Positions 28,498 through 39,683 of a stretch of DNA of 64,000 nt are shown here, one piece after another. The stretch is from an uncultured Chloroflexota bacterium (GTDB lineage: Bacteria > Chloroflexota > Anaerolineae > Anaerolineales > Anaerolineaceae), in NCBI GenBank assembly GCA_902774215.1, contig CACYHU010000050.1, positions 1 through 64,000 of the forward strand, written 5' to 3'. Position 1 is the stretch's first letter. Each line of letters opens with the position of its first letter. Below the pieces are notes generated by a model, which saw only the letters and a program-made list of their open reading frames with translations, did no database searches and had not been told where the DNA came from. Position numbers and translations under genes: made by a program.

Positions 28498-30414
28498 TTA
28501 TTCAGCCGCGTAGGCAGCAGCATTTGCTTCAGCCTGTTCGGTGGTCAGCAGATCGGTGGAAGTTTCCCAATCAGTGTAGCGGTATGCCTGCATACCGTAC
28601 ATGCTGTAAACCTTGGAGAAAGCATTGATCTTTGTCAGTTCCCATTGGACTTCATAGAACCACGGGATGACCAGAGCATGATCAAGCATGCAGGCTTCGG
28701 CTTTAGCGAAAGCAGCGTAACGAGCATCGATGTCATCGGTGATAGCTTTTGCTTCCGTAACGAGTTCGGTAAATTCTTCGTAAGCGGCGATCAGATCCGG
28801 ATCGGTAGCTTCATTAATGATGCTATATGCATTGGAATAATATGCAGCAGTATCATCATAGGTTTCCTGACCAAGGAAGTTGATCGGGTCAGCAAAGTCA
28901 GCGCCCCAGCCATTGATGTAGATGGAAGCTTTATGCGGTTTGCGGACTTCATTTGCAAGTGAAGAAATATAAGTGCCGATCTTCAGAGTGATATAATCAC
29001 TGCCCATGGTTTCAGCAACGATGTTTTCAAGAACTTTATAAGTCTGGATCAGTACATCATTGGAACCTGCGACATAGATTTCCATCGTTACAGGGAATGT
29101 GACGCCTTTTGCACTGAGTTCTTCCATCGCCTTGGCTTTGTATTCAGCAGCCAGGTCAGGATTGCGGCGGGCGTAGGTTTCATAATTGTACTGCAGGCCG
29201 ATCTCGTCGCGGACCAGCTGGGTATAGTCGGTACCGTCAGAGGTGAAAGAAACGCCGTTGCCGGTATAACCAAAGTTCTGGCAATTCAGAGGATTGATCG
29301 GATTGTAGCGGGCAAAGTAATTGACCGGATCCAGACCATAATAGAGACTCTTTCTGAAGTTCTCATTGGCAACAGCCAGATTCCAGTTTTCATCCGGGGT
29401 TTCACCGTCTTCAAGATTCTTGCTGTAGACCAGATGGATCTGATAAGAATATTTGGTCGGGCGCATTTCAACAAGGTTGTTATGATATTTGTTTGCCGGA
29501 TCGTTGTAAATTTCCTGCAGGGTAGCAGCATCAAGGCTGACATGGTCAAGTTCACCCTTATCAAACAGCTGGAAAGCGGTAGCTGCGGATTCAACGATCT
29601 TAATAGTGACAGTGTCGAAGCGCTTAACATTGGCGTCGTTCCAGTAGTTCGGGCTCTTGGTCAGGACTTTCTGGTTGTCTTTTTCAAAATAGGTGATGGT
29701 ATAAGGACCTGAATACCACAGATCTTCCCAGGTGATGTCGCGGTAGCCTTCAACACCGATTTCTTCGATGAGTTCAGCAGAGAGCGGATACAGGCAGTTA
29801 TAAGTGGCGACGGACGGGAAATACGGCAGGCTGTCGACCAGATAATAGGTGATGGTTCCTTCTAAATCATCACATTCAATGCCAACCATTTCAGCAAACT
29901 TGGAATCCTCATCAGCGGTAAGCTCATAAGCGGCTTCCGGACCATCGGATTCGGTAAGTTCTTTGGTATATTCATAATATTCTGCAGCACCGGCGATCAT
30001 TTCCATCGGCATGGAAGAGTTATAGGAATCGTTCTTCGCATAGTTCAGAACCCATTCAAGACCGGTTGCCCAGTCGGAAGCGACAACATCAGCCTGAACT
30101 TCGCCGTCTTTGTCGAACCAGGTCATGCCTTCATTGAGGGTGAAGACCCAGGTATGTCCGCCATCCGGGCTTTCGTAGGATTTAGCGGCATTCAGCTTCA
30201 GATTACCATGATTGTCGTTGGTCAACAGACCATCAATCAGGTTGTTCAAAACATTCAGGTCCTGAGCAGCCTGGGAATAGTGAATATTCCAGGTTTCAAC
30301 TTCACGGCCCTTTGTTTCGTAGGTGTTGAGGTTTGTCAGTTCATCAGCCATTGCCATGGAGACAGCACTGAGGATCATGACGAACGCTAACACGACAGCA
30401 AGCATTTTCTTCAT
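28498..30414 (-). CDS. oppA: Peptide-binding protein of ABC system 1, copy 1 (no lipobox)
   Basis: A 638-residue family-5 solute-binding protein. The N-terminus is a clear signal peptide ending AMADEL, but there is no lipobox Cys, so it is not a standard lipoprotein. The mature part has the family opening (NTYETKGREVETWN), the WVFTLNEGMTWFDKDG strand pair and a closing domain with a conserved GWGADFADPINFLGQ segment. It should capture oligopeptides for OppBC-DF. GGAGG is eight bases before the ATG and the gene has its own promoter at 30462-30490. It is about three quarters identical by eye to the next gene upstream, so the two arose by tandem duplication. Confidence 0.92.
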   Translation of the reverse strand: MKKMLAVVLAFVMILSAVSMAMADELTNLNTYETKGREVETWNIHYSQAAQDLNVLNNLIDGLLTNDNHGNLKLNAAKSYESPDGGHTWVFTLNEGMTWFDKDGEVQADVVASDWATGLEWVLNYAKNDSYNSSMPMEMIAGAAEYYEYTKELTESDGPEAAYELTADEDSKFAEMVGIECDDLEGTITYYLVDSLPYFPSVATYNCLYPLSAELIEEIGVEGYRDITWEDLWYSGPYTITYFEKDNQKVLTKSPNYWNDANVKRFDTVTIKIVESAATAFQLFDKGELDHVSLDAATLQEIYNDPANKYHNNLVEMRPTKYSYQIHLVYSKNLEDGETPDENWNLAVANENFRKSLYYGLDPVNYFARYNPINPLNCQNFGYTGNGVSFTSDGTDYTQLVRDEIGLQYNYETYARRNPDLAAEYKAKAMEELSAKGVTFPVTMEIYVAGSNDVLIQTYKVLENIVAETMGSDYITLKIGTYISSLANEVRKPHKASIYINGWGADFADPINFLGQETYDDTAAYYSNAYSIINEATDPDLIAAYEEFTELVTEAKAITDDIDARYAAFAKAEACMLDHALVIPWFYEVQWELTKINAFSKVYSMYGMQAYRYTDWETSTDLLTTEQAEANAAAYAAE

Positions 30415-30461
30415 ATTTTTTCCTCCAAATTAAAATTTAACATTTAAAAAATGTTTCAATT

Positions 30462-30490
30462 ATTTTACCGTTTTCATAAATTGACGTCAA
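30462..30490 (-). promoter_or_regulatory. Sigma-A-type promoter of binding-protein copy 1
   Basis: On the minus strand TTGACG (30490-30485), a 17-base spacer and TAAAAT (30467-30462), about 48 bases before the start codon. Confidence 0.8.
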
Positions 30491-30531
30491 GAAAATTAAA
30501 AAAATGAATGATATACGATATAGTTTTTAAT

Positions 30532-30565
30532 AAAAAAACGGGACAGCGCAGATACTGTCCCGTTC
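30532..30565 (-). terminator. Terminator after binding-protein copy 2
   Basis: Stem AACGGGACAG / CTGTCCCGTT with an eight-base loop, followed on the minus strand by seven T. It separates the transcription of the two binding-protein genes. Confidence 0.9.
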
Positions 30566-30582
30566 GAGTGAATTGTTTTTTC

Positions 30583-32496
30583 CTATTCGGCAGCCCAGAC
30601 GGCGGCGTTTGCGGCAGCTTCAGCTGTGGTGAGCGGTTCGGTATTTACTTCCCAGCCGACATAGCGGTAAGTCTGCATGCCATACATGGCATAAACGCGG
30701 CTGTAATCATTGATCTTGGTCAGTTCCCATTCAATGACGTAATGGGTGGGAATCACCAGCGCGTGGTCAAGGAAGCAGGCTTCAGCCTTTGCGAAGGCGG
30801 CATAACGCTCATCCAGATCGTCGGTGATGGCATCGGCAGCTTTTGTGAGTTCCGTGAATTCCTGATACGCAGCGATGAGGTCCAGATCAGTGACTTCATT
30901 CACATGGCTGTATACGGTGGAAAAATAAGCGGAAGTATCGTCATATGTCTCCTGCCCGAGGAAGTTGATCGGATCAGCAAAGTCAGCGCCCCAGCCGGTA
31001 ACATAGAAGGAAGCTTTACGGGGTGTGCGGACTTCATTGGCAAGTGAAGAAATATAGGTGTTGGTCTTCAGGACAACAAAATCATCACCCAGACCGTCAC
31101 GGAAGATGTTTTCAAGCACCTTGGCAGTCTGAGCCTCAACGTCATTGGAGCCGTTGATGTAATAATCAATTGTGACCGGGAAGGTAACGCCCTTTGCGCT
31201 CAGTTCTTCGATCGCTTTGGCTTTATATTCTGCAGTCGCTTCAGGATCATAGCGATTATAGACGGAATAATCGTAGTCAACGCCCATTTCTTCGCGTACA
31301 AGCTTTGTGTAGTCCGTACCGTCAGAAGTGAAGGATACACCGTTACCGGTATAGACATAGTTCTGAGAGTTCAGCGGGTTGATGGCGTTCGTACGGGCGA
31401 AATAATTCGTCAGGTCCAGACCGTAGTAAAGTGCCTTGCGGAAGTTTTCATTGGCAATGGCCAGATTCCAGTTGGTGTCCGGGGTAGTTCCGTCTTCCAG
31501 ATTCTTTGCAAAATCGAAGTGGAAGTGATAAGCGTATTTGGTCGGGCGCATTTCTACAAGATTATTATGATACTTGTGATTTTCGTCCTTGTAGATTTCC
31601 TGCAAAGTAGCCTGGTCAAGAGAGACATGGTCAAGTTCTCCCTGTGTAAACAGCTGGTAAGCGACAGCATTGGAATCAACGATCTTGAGTGTGATCGAGT
31701 CGAGACGGTCAACATTGGCGTCGTTCCAGTAGTTCGGGCTCTTGGTGAAGACCTTCTGGTTATCGTATTCAAAATAGGTGATCGTGTACGCACCGGAGTA
31801 CCACATATCTTCCCAGGTCACATCACGGTAGCCTTCCACACCGAGTTCTTCCAGCATGGAAGCTGAGGCCGGATACAGGCAGTTGTAGGTTGCCACGGAC
31901 GGGAAATAGGGAAGCTTCCCGACGAGCGTATAGGTGATGGTACCGGCTTCATCGTCACATTCGATGCCTACCATCTCATCAAAAACAGAACCTTCTTCAG
32001 CAGTAAGAGCCCAGGCAGCTTCATTGCCTTCTTTGTCGGCAAGATCTTTTGTGTAATCGTAATATTCCTGCGCTCCGGCGATCATCTGGTTCGGCATGGA
32101 TGTATTGTATGAATCATTTTTCGCATAGTTCAATACCCATTCCAGACCGGTCGCCCAGTCAGACGCCAAAACATCGGCCTGATATTCGCCATCCTTATTG
32201 AACCAGGTCATTCCTTCGTTCAATGTGAAGACCCAGGTCTGCCCGCCATCGGTGGTCTCATAGGATTTCGCGGCATTCAGCTGCATATCGCCATGATTAT
32301 CGTTGGTCATCAAACCATCGATCAGGTTGACCAGGACGTTGTTATCCACAGCGCGCTGAGACATGTGAACATTCCAGGTTTCGAGTTCACGGCCTCTGGT
32401 CTCATAGGTGGTCAGCGTATTCTGTCGTTCTGCAAAAGAGACCGAGACGGTGACGAGCAAAATAAGCACCAGCACAGGAAACAAATATTTCTTCAT
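30583..32496 (-). CDS. oppA: Peptide-binding protein of ABC system 1, copy 2 (no lipobox)
   Basis: A 637-residue paralogue of the gene at 28498, with the same domain layout. The signal peptide ends SVSFAERQ and again has no lipobox Cys. Differences from copy 1 are spread along the chain, which may alter peptide preference. AAGGAGGG precedes the ATG at good spacing. It has its own promoter (32542-32570) and terminator, so it can be made alone. Both copies probably feed the single permease downstream. How an unlipidated binding protein stays near the membrane of a single-membrane cell is unclear. Confidence 0.92.
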   Translation of the reverse strand: MKKYLFPVLVLILLVTVSVSFAERQNTLTTYETRGRELETWNVHMSQRAVDNNVLVNLIDGLMTNDNHGDMQLNAAKSYETTDGGQTWVFTLNEGMTWFNKDGEYQADVLASDWATGLEWVLNYAKNDSYNTSMPNQMIAGAQEYYDYTKDLADKEGNEAAWALTAEEGSVFDEMVGIECDDEAGTITYTLVGKLPYFPSVATYNCLYPASASMLEELGVEGYRDVTWEDMWYSGAYTITYFEYDNQKVFTKSPNYWNDANVDRLDSITLKIVDSNAVAYQLFTQGELDHVSLDQATLQEIYKDENHKYHNNLVEMRPTKYAYHFHFDFAKNLEDGTTPDTNWNLAIANENFRKALYYGLDLTNYFARTNAINPLNSQNYVYTGNGVSFTSDGTDYTKLVREEMGVDYDYSVYNRYDPEATAEYKAKAIEELSAKGVTFPVTIDYYINGSNDVEAQTAKVLENIFRDGLGDDFVVLKTNTYISSLANEVRTPRKASFYVTGWGADFADPINFLGQETYDDTSAYFSTVYSHVNEVTDLDLIAAYQEFTELTKAADAITDDLDERYAAFAKAEACFLDHALVIPTHYVIEWELTKINDYSRVYAMYGMQTYRYVGWEVNTEPLTTAEAAANAAVWAAE

Positions 32497-33092: not shown

Positions 33093-33331
33093 GCGCCTCC
33101 TCATACACTTGATTGTGCTAAAGTAATGAAAGAACAGTCTTTATTGGCATAAAAAATGAAATTGTGGTATAGTTTTTCTTCGTAAAATAATTTAGGTTAT
33201 AAGATTTTATTTTGATCGAGCTTCAGAATTTGAAACGACGAATTTTTCAGAAACAAGGGTAATTACATGACAGCAGGCTTGTAAAGGCGCTGGCATGTTT
33301 TTTTAGTTATTTTCAGGAGGTGAAACACATT

Positions 33332-34243
33332 ATGCTGCGATATTTTGTCACTCGTATTTTGCTGGCAATCGTAACTGTGTTCATCATCATCACGATCACG
33401 TTTTTCGCAATGAATGCGATCCCGGGAGGACCTTTCGCGTCTGAGAAGGCTCCTTCAGCAGCGGTCAAGGCTGTGCTTGAGGAGCGCTATAATCTGGATA
33501 AACCGGTCGGAACGCAGTTCATCTTATATCTAAAAAATATTCTTCACGGAGATTTTGGCGTTTCATTAAAAACAGGCCGTCCGATCACAACGGTTATCTC
33601 GGAGTCATTCGGAATATCTGCAAGGCTTGGCCTTATGGCCGCACTAGTCGCGATTGTTTTCGGACTGACATTCGGAAGTATTGCGGCGCTGACACGCAGC
33701 GGGATCTCTGACAGACTGATCATTTTTTTTACAACGCTGCTGGTTTCGGTGCCAAGTTTTGTGCTCGCAACATTGCTTCTTCTGGTCTTCTGTCTGCAGC
33801 TAAAATGGTTCCCTGTCTGGAGCTCCTCCAACCCCAATTATGTTCTGCCGGTAATTTCTCTTGCAATGTCTCCGATGGCATATATTACACGGCTGACCAA
33901 ATCTTCCATGCTTGATGTGTTGGGACAGGACTATATCCGTACCGCGGTTTCCAAAGGTGTTTCCCAATTCTGGGTCATTGCCAAGCATGCCCTCCGCAAC
34001 GCTCTGATCCCGGTTATCACGTATGTCGGACCGATGGTTGCGTATATTATTACCGGTTCTCTGGTTGTGGAATCAGTTTTCACTATCGGCGGACTTGGCG
34101 GCAAATTTGTATCTTCGATCAACAATCAGGATTACCCGATGATCATGGCCACGACAATATTTCTGGCTGTTTTGATGGTCCTTGCAACTCTGATTTCCGA
34201 TCTGGTTTACAAGCTTGTTGACCCACGGATCTCATTTGATTAA
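33332..34243 (+). CDS. oppB: Oligopeptide ABC transporter permease OppB, system 2
   Basis: A 303-residue permease of normal OppB/DppB length, six helices, with NAIPGGPF after helix 1 and the conserved YIRTAVSKGVSQFWV coupling region and SVFTIGGLGG near the end. The AGGAGG at 33315-33320 points to the ATG at 33332; a GTG at 33320 overlaps the ribosome site and is not the start. First gene of a five-gene operon oppBCDF-oppA. Unlike the other OppB of this window it has no Cys-rich insert. Confidence 0.93.
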   Translation: MLRYFVTRILLAIVTVFIIITITFFAMNAIPGGPFASEKAPSAAVKAVLEERYNLDKPVGTQFILYLKNILHGDFGVSLKTGRPITTVISESFGISARLGLMAALVAIVFGLTFGSIAALTRSGISDRLIIFFTTLLVSVPSFVLATLLLLVFCLQLKWFPVWSSSNPNYVLPVISLAMSPMAYITRLTKSSMLDVLGQDYIRTAVSKGVSQFWVIAKHALRNALIPVITYVGPMVAYIITGSLVVESVFTIGGLGGKFVSSINNQDYPMIMATTIFLAVLMVLATLISDLVYKLVDPRISFD

Positions 34244-34258
34244 GAGGAGGATTTGAAG

Positions 34259-35332
34259 ATGGATGAGAGCAAAGGATTCCCAAAAAAACAACTTCTGAGC
34301 CTCCAATTGGATCTTTCCAAATTTGAACAGGTTTCGGATGAGGAAAAAGCGCAGGCTGTTATTATGCGGGAGTCAACCACCTTTTTCAAGGATGGTATGA
34401 GAAAACTGAGAAAGAATCCTCTCGCGATGGGCAGCCTGGTTGTACTTGTTTTAATTATCCTGCTGATCGTTATCGCACCGAGGATCGTTCCCTACAGCTA
34501 TGATCAGATGATCACGGTCGATGGTAAACGTGACAAGACCGCTAAAAACCTGGCTCCATTTACATATTCAAAAAATGAACAGGCAGCTATTGACAAAGGT
34601 GAAAAAATATTCCCTCATATTTTCGGTACGGATGAGCTTTGCCGTGATTATTTTATGCGTGTTATCTATGGAACGCGGGTTTCCCTCTCGGTCGGTCTCT
34701 TCGCAAGCCTTATCGTTTTGGTGATTGGATTGCTTTACGGTTCGATTTCCGGTTATGCGGGGGGAAAAGTTGATATTATCATGATGCGTATCGTGGATAT
34801 CATTTATTCCCTGCCGGATACGCTGATGGTTATTTTGCTTTCTGTGATCCTCTCAACTGTTCTTACCGAAAAGCTTCAGGGTACGATTTTCCAGAAGCTT
34901 GGCGTAAACATGATCAGTTTGTTTATTGTGTTCGGATTGCTTTACTGGGTCGGTATGGCTCGTCTGGTCCGCGGACAAATACTGACAATTAAAAACAACG
35001 AATATGTACTTGCTGCCAAGGCTTTGGGTTCCGGGTCCGCACGAATCATCCTCAAACATATCCTGCCAAACTGTATGAGTGTGATCTTTATTTCGACCGC
35101 GCTGCAGGTGCCTTCCGCGATCTTTACGGAAAGCTACCTCTCATTCATTGGTCTCGGGGTACAGGCACCGATGCCTTCACTGGGTTCCCTGGCAAATGCT
35201 GCCCGCGGCGGACTTTCCAGCTACCCTTATAAGCTCGTATTTCCGGCTGTTATGATTTGTCTGATCGTTCTCTCCTGCAACCTGCTGGGTGACGGACTGC
35301 GCGATGCTTTTGATCCGAAATTAAGGAGGTAA
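34259..35332 (+). CDS. oppC: Oligopeptide ABC transporter permease OppC, system 2
   Basis: A 357-residue permease with a 65-residue charged N-terminal tail, first helix MGSLVVLVLIILLIVIA and a long outer loop before five more helices. The coupling region ALGSGSARIILKHILPN and the C-terminal ARGGLSSYPYKLVFPA are family typical. GAGGAGG eight bases upstream selects the ATG at 34259 over a TTG at 34253. It pairs with the OppB just upstream and is followed after two bases by oppD. Confidence 0.93.
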   Translation: MDESKGFPKKQLLSLQLDLSKFEQVSDEEKAQAVIMRESTTFFKDGMRKLRKNPLAMGSLVVLVLIILLIVIAPRIVPYSYDQMITVDGKRDKTAKNLAPFTYSKNEQAAIDKGEKIFPHIFGTDELCRDYFMRVIYGTRVSLSVGLFASLIVLVIGLLYGSISGYAGGKVDIIMMRIVDIIYSLPDTLMVILLSVILSTVLTEKLQGTIFQKLGVNMISLFIVFGLLYWVGMARLVRGQILTIKNNEYVLAAKALGSGSARIILKHILPNCMSVIFISTALQVPSAIFTESYLSFIGLGVQAPMPSLGSLANAARGGLSSYPYKLVFPAVMICLIVLSCNLLGDGLRDAFDPKLRR

Positions 35333-35334
35333 AT

Positions 35335-36336
35335 ATGACAGAGAGACTTTTGGAAGTAAAAGATCTGCATACATCCTTCTTTACAGACGCAGGTGAAGTA
35401 AAAGCTGTAAACGGATTATCATTCAATCTGGATGAAGGAGAGGTTTTAGGGATCGTCGGTGAGTCAGGTTCCGGTAAAAGCGTAACCGCTTATTCGATCA
35501 TGCGCATTCTGACAAATCCCGGAACAATAAAAAGCGGTCAGATCCTTTATAAAGGACAGGATATTTCAAAGATCCCGGAAAAGGAAATGCGGAAAATTCG
35601 CGGAGCAAAGATTTCCATTATTTTCCAGGATCCGATGACTTCGCTGAATCCTACATATACGATCGGGAACCAGATCGAGGAAGCAATTTTACTGCATACA
35701 AATCGGACAAAGTCAGAAGCCCGTGAACGCGCAATTGAAATGCTGAAGCTGGTTGGTGTCAATGAGCCGGAAAAACGCGTAAGGCAATATCCTCACGAGC
35801 TTTCCGGCGGTATGCGGCAGCGTGTGATGATAGCGATGGCACTGGCCTGCGAGCCGGACATCCTGATTGCCGATGAGCCGACAACAGCTCTGGATGTGAC
35901 GATACAGGCTCAGATTCTTGAACTGATGCAGAATCTGCAGAAGGAATTGGGAATGGCGATCATCATTATCACACATGATCTGGGTGTGATTGCAGATATG
36001 TGCGACACCATCATCGTGATGTATGGCGGACGTGCCTGTGAACGCGGTACGGCCGATGAGATTTTCTATAACCCGTGCCATGAATATACAAAAGGTCTGA
36101 TGCGGTCGATCCCGAGTATTGTCGGAAAGCGGGAGCGACTGATACCGATCTCGGGTACACCGATCGATCAATTGAATCTGCCGAAAGGCTGTGCCTTTGC
36201 ACCCCGTTGTGATAATGCTATGCGGATCTGCATGGAAGCTCAGCCGGATGAGATAATGATCAATCAGGATCATTCGGCAGCATGCTGGATGAATGTGAAA
36301 AAAGTCTACGAAGAAGCCGGAAAGGAGAAAGCCTGA
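35335..36336 (+). CDS. oppD: Oligopeptide ABC transporter ATPase OppD
   Basis: A 333-residue ABC ATPase. Walker A GESGSGKS near residue 42, Q-loop [10 protein letters not shown], signature LSGGMRQR, Walker [12 protein letters not shown], and a C-terminal peptide-transporter extension with the Cys-bearing [14 protein letters not shown]. Its ribosome site AAGGAGG overlaps the end of oppC. It should pair with OppF to drive import; the neighbouring oppF is damaged. Confidence 0.95.
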
Positions 36337-36337
36337 T

Positions 36338-37220
36338 ATGAGTACACAGCCTCTGGTTGATGTGAGACACTTGAAACAGTATTTTCCGATTCGTACCGGA
36401 TTCTTTGAAACAACACCGCTCAAAGCTGTGGATGATATTTCATTCTATGTAAATGAGGGCGAAACGCTTGGCCTGGTCGGTGAATCAGGCTGCGGTAAAA
36501 CAACCGCGGGACGTACGATTCTGCATCTCTACAAACCGACTGCAGGTGAGATTTATTATGATGGCAATCTGATCACAGAAAAGAATATCAAGAATTACCG
36601 CAAAGAAATGCAGATCGTTTTTCAGGATCCCTATTCTTCTCTTGATCCTCGTATGACCGTTGCGGATATTATCGGTGAGCCGCTTGATATTCATCATTTA
36701 TACAGCAATAAAGCAGAAAGAACTGATAAGGTTCGTCATTTGATGGATCTGGTCGGATTGAATTCCGAACAGGCGAACCGATATGCACATGAATTTTCAG
36801 GCGGTCAGCGTCAGCGTATCGGGATCGCCAGGGCACTTGCTGTAGACCCGAATTTTATCGTCTGCGATGAGCCGGTTTCCGCGCTGGATGTTTCCATTCA
36901 GGCTCAAATAATCAATACCTTTGAAGATCTGCAGAAAAAACTGAATATTGCTTATCTGTTTATTGCCCATGATCTGTTAGTGGTAAGACATATGTCCAAC
37001 AGGATCGCGGTAATGTATCTGGGAAGGATCGTTGAGACCGCGGATGCCTCATTCCCGCAAACGTATCCCTTTGGAGGGTGACGTTCCAAGTCCTTTACAT
37101 ATGCCATCCGGATGTTCTTTCCGAACGCGCTGCCGCTATGCGACAGAAAAATGTGCACAGGAAAGGCCTGAACTTCGTGAAGTTTCTCCGGGACATCAGG
37201 TGGCCTGCCACATTATTTAA
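36338..37220 (+). pseudogene. oppF: Oligopeptide ABC transporter ATPase OppF, interrupted by deletion/frameshift
   Basis: The first 240 residues are a good OppF: GESGCGKTT near 48, [19 protein letters not shown], up to GRIVETADA. The frame then ends at 37081. The lost C-terminal extension is found in another frame from about 37050 to 37220 ([13 protein letters not shown], then Cys-rich [17 protein letters not shown]). Between the parts the segment with the usual [10 protein letters not shown] motif, roughly 30 residues, is absent. The remaining catalytic domain is complete, so a shortened protein could still hydrolyse ATP. Without it the system would need another OppF, such as the fused OppDF. 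Sequencing or assembly error is possible. Confidence 0.82.
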
Positions 37221-37345
37221 TTCTGAAATCAGAAATAAATTATATCTGACTTCAATTGCTGTAGTCTGAAGACTGATTTCTAAAATGGTGTATCAACTAT
37301 TTGGGAAAGATCCCGGATAGAAATTTATATAGGAGAAGATAAATA

Positions 37346-39634
37346 ATGAAGAAATTTTATCTGATTTTGTCCGTACTGGCCATAGCACTGCTGTTAAGCG
37401 CCTGTGGCTCAAACCAGCCAGCTCCGACCGCTGCGCCCGCTGCGACTGAAGTTCCTACTGATACTGTGATGGAAGAAGCTATCAAAGATTCAGCAGAAGC
37501 CGTTTCAGATACTGTCAATGAGGCTGGAAAAGCTGTAGAGGAAGCGGTCTCTGATGTTGCTGAAACCAAAGCCGAAGCAGATAAAGCAGTTGAAGAAGCT
37601 GTTACAGATGCTGTTCAGTCCGTTTCTGAAACCTACGATGAAGCTGAAAAAGCCGTAGCAGAATCTGTTGAAGCTGCTGCTGCGTCTGTTTCTGAAACCT
37701 ACGCTGAAGCCGAACAAGCTGTAAAAGATGCTATCGCTGATGGTTCTGATGCCGAGACAATTGCTGAAACCTACAAAGAAGCTGAAAAAGCAGTAGAAGA
37801 AGCTGTTGCAGATGCTGTTCAGTCTGTTTCTGATACTTACGATGAAGCTGAAAAAGCCGTAAGCGAAGCTGCTGCCGATGCTGTTGCTGCCGTTGATGAT
37901 ACCTCCAAGGAAGCTGCAAGTGTTGTTGAAGATGCTAAAGCTGACGCCGCTGAAGTCGTTAAAGATGCAGTTGCCGAAGTTGGATCCGCTGTGGAGGAAG
38001 GTTATGAAAATGTTCTTGCCAACAGCCCGTATCCGGACTGGAGAGAGTATGATGCCTTCATCAAGGAAATCAAGTCCACAACCGATTTTGCCGAACGTGC
38101 GGAGATGATGCATGAGGCTGAAGATATGCTGATGGATACCGGTGCCCTGCTGCCGATCTACTATTACAACGATTATTATATGCAGTCCTCCAAGGTTAGC
38201 GGTATTTACAGCTCCCTGTTCGCGACCAAGTATTTCTACTACGCAACCAAAGAAGGCGACAACACTCTGAAGATCAACCTCTCTTCCGAACCGGATCATC
38301 TGGATCCTGCTCTGAACAGCTCTGTTGACGGTGCCTGTCTGGCAGCCAACTCATTCAGCGGTCTGTATGCCTACAATGCAGATGGCGAACTTGCCCCGCA
38401 GCTTGCCGAAGGTTACACACTTTCCGAAGATGGTCTGACCTACACCTTCACCCTGAAGGACGGCCTGAAATGGTCCGATGGTTCCGACCTGACTGCTGAA
38501 GACTTTGTCTACAGCTGGAAACGCGCTTCCGATCCGATGACCGGAGCCGACTATGCATACATGTTCGACGTTATCGCCGGCTACGATGAATTCCAGGCCG
38601 GTGACGCGGATGCCCTGAAGGTTTCCGCTCCGGATGCGAAGACCATCGTTGTCACGCTGAAGAGCCCCTGCGCCTATATGCTTGACCTGGTAGCCTTCCC
38701 GACCTACTTCCCTGTGAAGCAGTCTGTTGTGGAAGCGAAGGAAGACTGGGAAACCAACCCGGGTTCCTGGGCACAGGAAGCCGGCTTCGTCTCCAACGGT
38801 GCCTACACACTGGAAAGCTGGAACCATGATGAATCCATGGTTTACGTAAAGAACCCGTACTGGTATGACGCTGACAAGGTGTCTATCGAACGCATCGAAT
38901 ACATGCTGTCCGCAGATGACACCGCGATCTACGCTGCATACCGCGCCGGCGATCTTGATTTCGCCGATACCGTTCCTACCGATGAGATCGCATCACTGAT
39001 CGAAAACAAGGATCCGGAATTCCACATCGTTGACGAACTGGGTACCTACTATGTGATCTTCAACGTGAAGAGCCCGCTGTTTGACGGAAAGACCGCTGAA
39101 CAGGCCAGTGCCATGCGCAAAGCCTTCGGTCTGCTTGTTGACCGCCAGTACATCATCGATACTGTCGGACAGACCGGACAGAAGATCGCCACATCCTTCC
39201 TGCCTGCCGGTATGGCAGACGGCAACGGCGGCATCTTCAAGGATGCAGAAGCCTGGGATTACCCGGTGGATGACGGCTACTATGGTACCGAAGTTGATGT
39301 TGACGGTGCCCGCGAACTGCTCGAATTTGCCGGATTCGAATTCGGTGAAGATGGCAAGCTTTCCCCGGAAACCCCGATCAGCTTTGAATATCTGACCAAT
39401 CAGACCTCCGCTCATGTTGCGATTGCAGAATGTATCCAGCAGGATCTTGCGGAAGTCGGTATTGAAATGACCATCCGCTCCATTGACTGGAACGTGTTCC
39501 TCAATGAACGTAAGGAAGGCAACTACGATATCGCCCGCAACGGTTGGATCGCTGACTTCAACGACCCGATCAACATGCTGGAAATGTGGACCACCGACTC
39601 CGGCAATAACGATGCCCAGTTCGGCCGCTACTAA
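37346..39634 (+). CDS. oppA: Circularly permuted, stalked peptide-binding lipoprotein
   Basis: A 762-residue protein in four parts. Residues 1-20 are a lipoprotein signal with lipobox LSAC. Residues ~40-218 are an Ala/Glu/Val-rich helical stalk with repeats such as SETYDEAEKAV and EKAVEEAV. Residues ~219-302 (PDWREYDAFIKEIKS, EAEDMLMDTGALLPIYYY, KYFYYATK) match the C-terminal end of family-5 binding proteins. From ~304 on comes the normal start (NTLKINLSSEPDHLDPAL) and body, which stops at GNNDAQFGRY, exactly where that C-terminal end should follow. So the domain is circularly permuted. It is the last gene of the opp system 2 operon and should bind peptides; folding of the permuted form is inference. 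A terminator begins 17 bases after the stop. Confidence 0.88.
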   Translation: MKKFYLILSVLAIALLLSACGSNQPAPTAAPAATEVPTDTVMEEAIKDSAEAVSDTVNEAGKAVEEAVSDVAETKAEADKAVEEAVTDAVQSVSETYDEAEKAVAESVEAAAASVSETYAEAEQAVKDAIADGSDAETIAETYKEAEKAVEEAVADAVQSVSDTYDEAEKAVSEAAADAVAAVDDTSKEAASVVEDAKADAAEVVKDAVAEVGSAVEEGYENVLANSPYPDWREYDAFIKEIKSTTDFAERAEMMHEAEDMLMDTGALLPIYYYNDYYMQSSKVSGIYSSLFATKYFYYATKEGDNTLKINLSSEPDHLDPALNSSVDGACLAANSFSGLYAYNADGELAPQLAEGYTLSEDGLTYTFTLKDGLKWSDGSDLTAEDFVYSWKRASDPMTGADYAYMFDVIAGYDEFQAGDADALKVSAPDAKTIVVTLKSPCAYMLDLVAFPTYFPVKQSVVEAKEDWETNPGSWAQEAGFVSNGAYTLESWNHDESMVYVKNPYWYDADKVSIERIEYMLSADDTAIYAAYRAGDLDFADTVPTDEIASLIENKDPEFHIVDELGTYYVIFNVKSPLFDGKTAEQASAMRKAFGLLVDRQYIIDTVGQTGQKIATSFLPAGMADGNGGIFKDAEAWDYPVDDGYYGTEVDVDGARELLEFAGFEFGEDGKLSPETPISFEYLTNQTSAHVAIAECIQQDLAEVGIEMTIRSIDWNVFLNERKEGNYDIARNGWIADFNDPINMLEMWTTDSGNNDAQFGRY

Positions 39635-39650
39635 TATCTGTTAGAATTTG

Positions 39651-39683
39651 AAAAAAGCCGCTCCTGAAAAGGAGCGGTTTTTT
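39651..39683 (+). terminator. Terminator of peptide transporter operon 2
   Basis: Stem CCGCTCCT / AGGAGCGG with a short A-rich loop, A-run before and six T after. Confidence 0.92.

Follow-up and report, generated by a model that had tools for sequence, protein, structure and literature searches.

Within the window, by which we mean the whole stretch of 64,000 nucleotides that was analysed, an open reading frame at 37346-39634 (coordinates that agree with those of the original prediction, which had been made from the letters alone) encodes a protein of 762 amino acids and lies downstream of genes for a dppBCDF importer (Table 1). The Pfam family SBP_bac_5 (PF00496) was found at residues 348-755 with an E-value of 5e-89, scoring 299 bits against a curated cut-off of 32.4, and the protein carries both an export signal, read directly as a lipobox, and a link to an Opp/Dpp transporter through the dppBCDF genes upstream. 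The stalk that follows the lipobox has a GC3 of 0.25 versus 0.63-0.64 in the binding domain, shows a periodicity of 3.6 residues and is partly made of 66-nt repeats; its GC3 and periodicity fit a separate helical spacer, and the full-length AlphaFold2 model gives it two long helices (40-131 and 136-225) with moderate confidence. The chain ends in GNNDAQFGRY, immediately followed by the stop codon, and a terminator scan placed the hairpin beyond it on the minus strand; such hits were not above the shuffled expectation. In the dppF region (36338-37250) an 80-nt deletion with a frameshift was found that is absent from the four congeners compared; it may be a true mutation or a local error of assembly. 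Since dppF is shortened in the window genome, the importer encoded here may be impaired or altered. Upstream of dppB, the minus strand codes for two adjacent and similar family-5 binding proteins of 637-638 aa (28498-32496).

Table 1. Coordinates of the permuted binding-protein gene, its parts and the importer genes next to it.
Feature	Position	Strand	Evidence
dppB/oppB-like permease	33320..34243	+	BPD_transp_1, E 1e-38; same place upstream of binding protein in relatives
dppC/oppC-like permease	34253..35332	+	BPD_transp_1 and OppC_N; synteny
dppD/oppD-like ATPase	35335..36336	+	ABC_tran and oligo_HPY; synteny
dppF/oppF-like ATPase, C-terminus lost	36338..37081	+	247 aa versus 320-336 aa in congeners; nucleotide alignment
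Lipoprotein signal peptide with lipobox LLSAC, Cys20	37346..37405	+	MKKFYLILSVLAIALLLSAC, direct reading
Ala/Glu/Val-rich stalk, residues 21-226, partly repetitive	37406..38023	+	AlphaFold2 helices, periodicity, GC3, repeats
Transposed C-terminal segment of family-5 fold, residues 227-302	38024..38251	+	Maps to OppA 8are 456-519 and DppE 8ay0 451-506
N-terminal and middle part of family-5 fold, residues 303-762	38252..39631	+	OppA 8are 17-450; VIA-align Z 29.3, rmsd 2.7, 422 residues
Stop codon at new C-terminus	39632..39634	+	Same end in congeners L038-L041; most others identical minus final Y
Terminator-like hairpin, GC-rich then T's, ~20 nt past stop	39656..39682	+	GCCGCTCCTGAAAAGGAGCGGTTTTTT, direct reading

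The two parts of the binding domain stand in swapped order. When the domain alone (residues 220-762) was searched with phmmer against the PDB, its residues 84-538 matched residues 17-450 of Bacillus subtilis OppA (8are, E 1.8e-70) and its residues 15-78 matched OppA 456-519. The front piece of 85 aa on its own found the C-terminus of DppE (8ay0, 451-506) with an E-value of 1.4e-9, and that of OppA as well, so the swapped match is not a matter of chance. The two pieces together account for the entire OppA fold a single time, the breakpoints being only some five residues apart, and the protein is thus a circular permutant in that two swapped homologous stretches in one chain make up the whole fold, as had been proposed from the observation that the C-terminal segment precedes the normal N-terminus and the gene stops where this segment should begin. 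The front segment, whose boundaries we set at residues 220/227-302 (38003/38024-38251), had been predicted from about residue 219; the segment is present, but its homologous start lies nearer 233 and residues 219-232 are linker. B. subtilis OppA (8are/8arn) and DppE (8ay0/8azb), which belong to cluster C, share fold and sequence family with the window protein (31-34% identity over ~420 aligned residues) and are components of Opp/Dpp peptide importers, a role that the window protein probably has too. Unlike them, it has rotated segments (the conventional order of the solved OppA and DppE is no part of the Pfam definition), its termini are found in a loop of domain III and not in domain I, and it carries a long helical stalk. 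In the alignment, its ADFNDP motif falls in the part of OppA where the ligand-binding Asp is located.

We found the same break in five species of the window genus, at the locus directly after dppBCDF, the four congeners G013, G005, G006 and G007 having identical order in the identical place. A stalkless paralogue group occurs at other loci in G000, G006 and G013, and two permuted relatives without stalk or lipobox (L041:8312-9994 and L043:7445-9127) have an apparently ordinary secretion signal. Outside the genus, a contig scan with an order test found the C-part before the N-part at 11 loci (L050-L058, L060, L068), including that of the isolate Blautia caecimuris DSM 29492, and a junction probe gave full-span matches in 24 of 299 sampled genomes of the Lachnospiraceae (the Blautia family), counts that are lower bounds given that the probe is blind to permutants cut inside it and that E-value limits drop distant families. 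The search of related genomes that the original prediction recommended was therefore positive within the genus, in the Blautia isolate and in part of the sampled Lachnospiraceae. That prediction had regarded misassembly as the main alternative, the permuted order arising where tandem or repetitive copies were wrongly joined, and both the draft state of the genome (240 contigs) and the frameshifting 80-nt deletion in the adjacent dppF would be compatible with it; the recurrence of the same breakpoints in these independent assemblies excludes it, and we give it practically no weight. The two observations that had been named as speaking jointly against a permutation came apart: an unpermuted gene does stand at the same locus in a relative (L059), but the breakpoints are not unique to the window assembly.

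Conventional orthologues in the Lachnospiraceae (L059, L186-L191) are 53-62% identical to the window protein, have dppBCDF upstream where this was checked (L059), as in the window, and differ in having the normal order, with a short linker (for example GKDPSNTAAPDW) exactly where the permuted chains are cut. The cut falls between GNNDxQFG and xPDWxxYD, in a variable loop that in conventional relatives holds linkers of varied length (GNNDTQFGKDPSNTAAPDWTKYDELI in L186, a longer insert GNNDVQFGKGAHKDYKGYSYGGKDNLTWAESYDKLI in L064), and permuted chains start and finish with the two halves of this same loop. Between the old C- and N-terminal segments the junction is direct (KYFYYATKEGDN-TLKINL), the short stretch KYFYYATKEGDNTLKINL bridging the old termini. 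One further candidate, L072, first looked permuted and proved to be two adjacent conventional genes; for L046 (G014), the match range in the search for relatives raised a suspicion of permutation.

With 19 permuted relatives as input, AlphaFold2 modelled the 543-residue domain with a pLDDT of 83.2 and a pTM of 0.81, so that the structure prediction advised at the outset yielded a confident OppA fold. The best solved match of the model was OppA 8are, whose chain 18-453 superposes on model residues 85-543 (Z 29.3, rmsd 2.7, 422 residues; Foldseek agrees), giving a three-domain OppA-like fold with the front 82 residues outside the superposition, since sequential aligners are unable to place them simultaneously with the rest. 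The front segment may well pack in its old C-terminal place. Conservation is strong over the 19 sequences, which argues for selection. A truncated and rearranged pseudogene, left by a deletion in a tandem binding-protein pair, would be in keeping with the truncation of the neighbouring dppF in the window genome and with a stalk composition strongly unlike that of the domain; we consider it highly unlikely, because the frame is open, the entire fold is present with no piece missing, and a well-predicted fold goes together with strong conservation over many species. Taking these lines of evidence together, the gene very probably encodes a family-5 (OppA/DppE-like) lipoprotein for peptide binding that is circularly permuted, genuinely so and in conserved form, and that supplies the dppBCDF importer encoded immediately upstream. 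Judging from its family, the conservation of its motifs and its operon context, the chain would fold as a normal bilobed binding protein, bind peptides and dock on the permeases as usual.

The termini of OppA lie in domain I, and the loop between GNNDxQFG and xPDWxxYD lies in domain III. The tether has therefore moved: the lipid anchor signal and the long stalk, predicted to be helical, are attached at a new site and would hold the protein by domain III rather than by domain I. This moved tether, the length of the stalk and the existence of congeners without stalk and lipobox (L041, L043) invite the reading that the protein no longer serves transport but is a receptor or sensor, its tether position tuned for signalling, as does the study of a permuted sugar-binding protein of Treponema pallidum, TpMglB-2, as a putative chemoreceptor (PMC4990184). 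We think this improbable, since outside the paralogue group the gene follows dppBCDF in the congeners, and it does so as well in the well-flanked loci of Lachnospiraceae type that were examined. Closure of the fold within one chain has its own alternative, in which the N-part of one molecule is completed by the front C-segment of another, so that domain-swapped oligomers form, or in which N1 and C2 of a fused double protein form a conventional domain across the linker. Both arrangements occur within the C-N-linker-C-N proteins of G006 and G007, and the PDB has an entry (8qlh) in which another family-5 protein, AliC, forms a domain-swapped dimer. Against such an exchange of partners, the short direct C-to-N junction permits intramolecular closure, the monomer model is confident and single-unit versions predominate, which leaves it a small chance.

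Circular permutation of a binding lipoprotein has a natural precedent in Tp0684 (TpMglB-2) of T. pallidum, a permuted glucose-binding protein described as "Type Ic / Cluster Bc", in which the authors saw membrane tethering as a possible driving force of the permutation (PMC4990184). Both it and the window protein are natural permutants of ABC-type binding lipoproteins, but TpMglB-2 is a Type I / cluster B sugar binder of an unrelated sequence family, its first strands were moved to the C-terminus whereas here a C-terminal segment was moved to the front, and its permuted part is only 13% identical to the E. coli counterpart (PMC4990184), whereas both pieces of the window protein are clearly homologous. 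The window protein falls outside the TpMglB-2-like class, defined by Type I / cluster B fold and sequence, as an SBP_bac_5 member with its best matches in OppA and DppE. Permutation of a binding protein is thus already published, and in family 5 its recurrence is the more novel part. In line with the earlier statement that no permuted OppA was known to have been described, literature searches, which covered open-access papers only, found no published permuted family-5 protein.

In a tree of 60 sequences, all rotated to one order, one clade (support 100/100) unites 41 permuted and 7 conventional genes, the conventional ones nesting at several places, and the starred branches force 4 changes of order. 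A single permuted clade was rejected with these 60 rows (log-likelihood 137 lower, AU p 6e-5), and an earlier, smaller tree had not rejected it (AU p 0.096). It follows from this rejection with 60 rows and from the nesting of the conventional genes that the order has changed several times at one loop, whether through reversions or through repeated permutations there. When the N-part was divided into two halves and each was treated separately, 4 changes were again required in both, and intragenic recombination was therefore discarded as the sole cause of the scattered order.

The presence of two permuted units fused in one chain (C-N-linker-C-N) in G006 and G007 (1290 and 1320 aa), and of a giant same-family protein in G017 that contains two conventional family-5 domains, makes tandem duplication, fusion and trimming the simplest route between the two orders. 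An in-frame tandem duplication with gene fusion would come first; the permuted order would then result once the leading N-part and the final C-part were lost, and the opposite trimming would restore the conventional one. Duplication and trimming of a tandem pair had already been put forward in the original prediction, and the fused double copies make it plausible. The dppBCDF genes stand directly upstream in permuted and conventional relatives alike, and their products are mostly 65-80% identical to the window proteins in the permuted relatives and 55-75% in the conventional ones. Within the samples of its own order and class, the permuted type is confined to the window genus, which suggests that the operon moved between lineages; we hypothesise that it came to the genus from Lachnospiraceae-like gut bacteria by horizontal transfer. 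Few natural circular permutants are known with the steps still visible, and here a single orthologous gene exists at one locus of related bacteria in permuted, conventional and fused double form, so that the route of duplication, fusion and trimming, and its direction, can be studied directly. Moreover, the moved tether makes it testable whether the attachment point matters for handing the peptide over to the ABC importer.

Probe searches brought up other family-5 proteins that are cut at some six additional positions, with matching starts and stops; these types, which we call B to G, are known from sequence reading and mapping. In type B, present in six genomes (L132, L135, L144-L147), the break lies at OppA 416/419 and a Cys is conserved beside both new termini (CxYNAYRMGW and xxCN), a pair that could perhaps act as a disulfide staple, a closure considered for the type-B relatives only. 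In type C (L136, L149, L151) the cut falls within the N-terminal third, at a point between about 103 and 151 of 4gl8, and in type D (L150, L157) at E. coli OppA 198/201, where long modules, which we take to be DUF11-like from our own reading, follow the permuted domain in chains of ~1450 and 2160 aa. Type E (L077:5824-7665, after dppBCDF) has its break near DppE 284/291, starts with EIRNAIALLFDR, ends with CWNINEPLLP before a terminator-like hairpin, and nests among conventional genes in the tree; it is the orthologous binding protein at this place, cut at a different point. Type F (L196 and L197, both in single-contig genomes) breaks at OppA 356/366, and type G (L199 and L200, from the window's own family) near DppA 268/302, close to the break of type E but in another subfamily. 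We lean towards regarding family-5 proteins as a natural hot spot of permutation, with about seven break positions, repeated two-way changes of order at one loop, fused tandem intermediates and a tether point that could be chosen anew. Break positions that are tolerated in nature are also guides for the design of peptide biosensors.

Family-5 domains were also met in other large architectures. The open frame L202 (G017:C56) spans 5229 aa, with two tandem conventional family-5 domains and repeated modules, and the open frames L203 and L204 fuse family-5 binding domains to regulators resembling protein kinases or ATPases.
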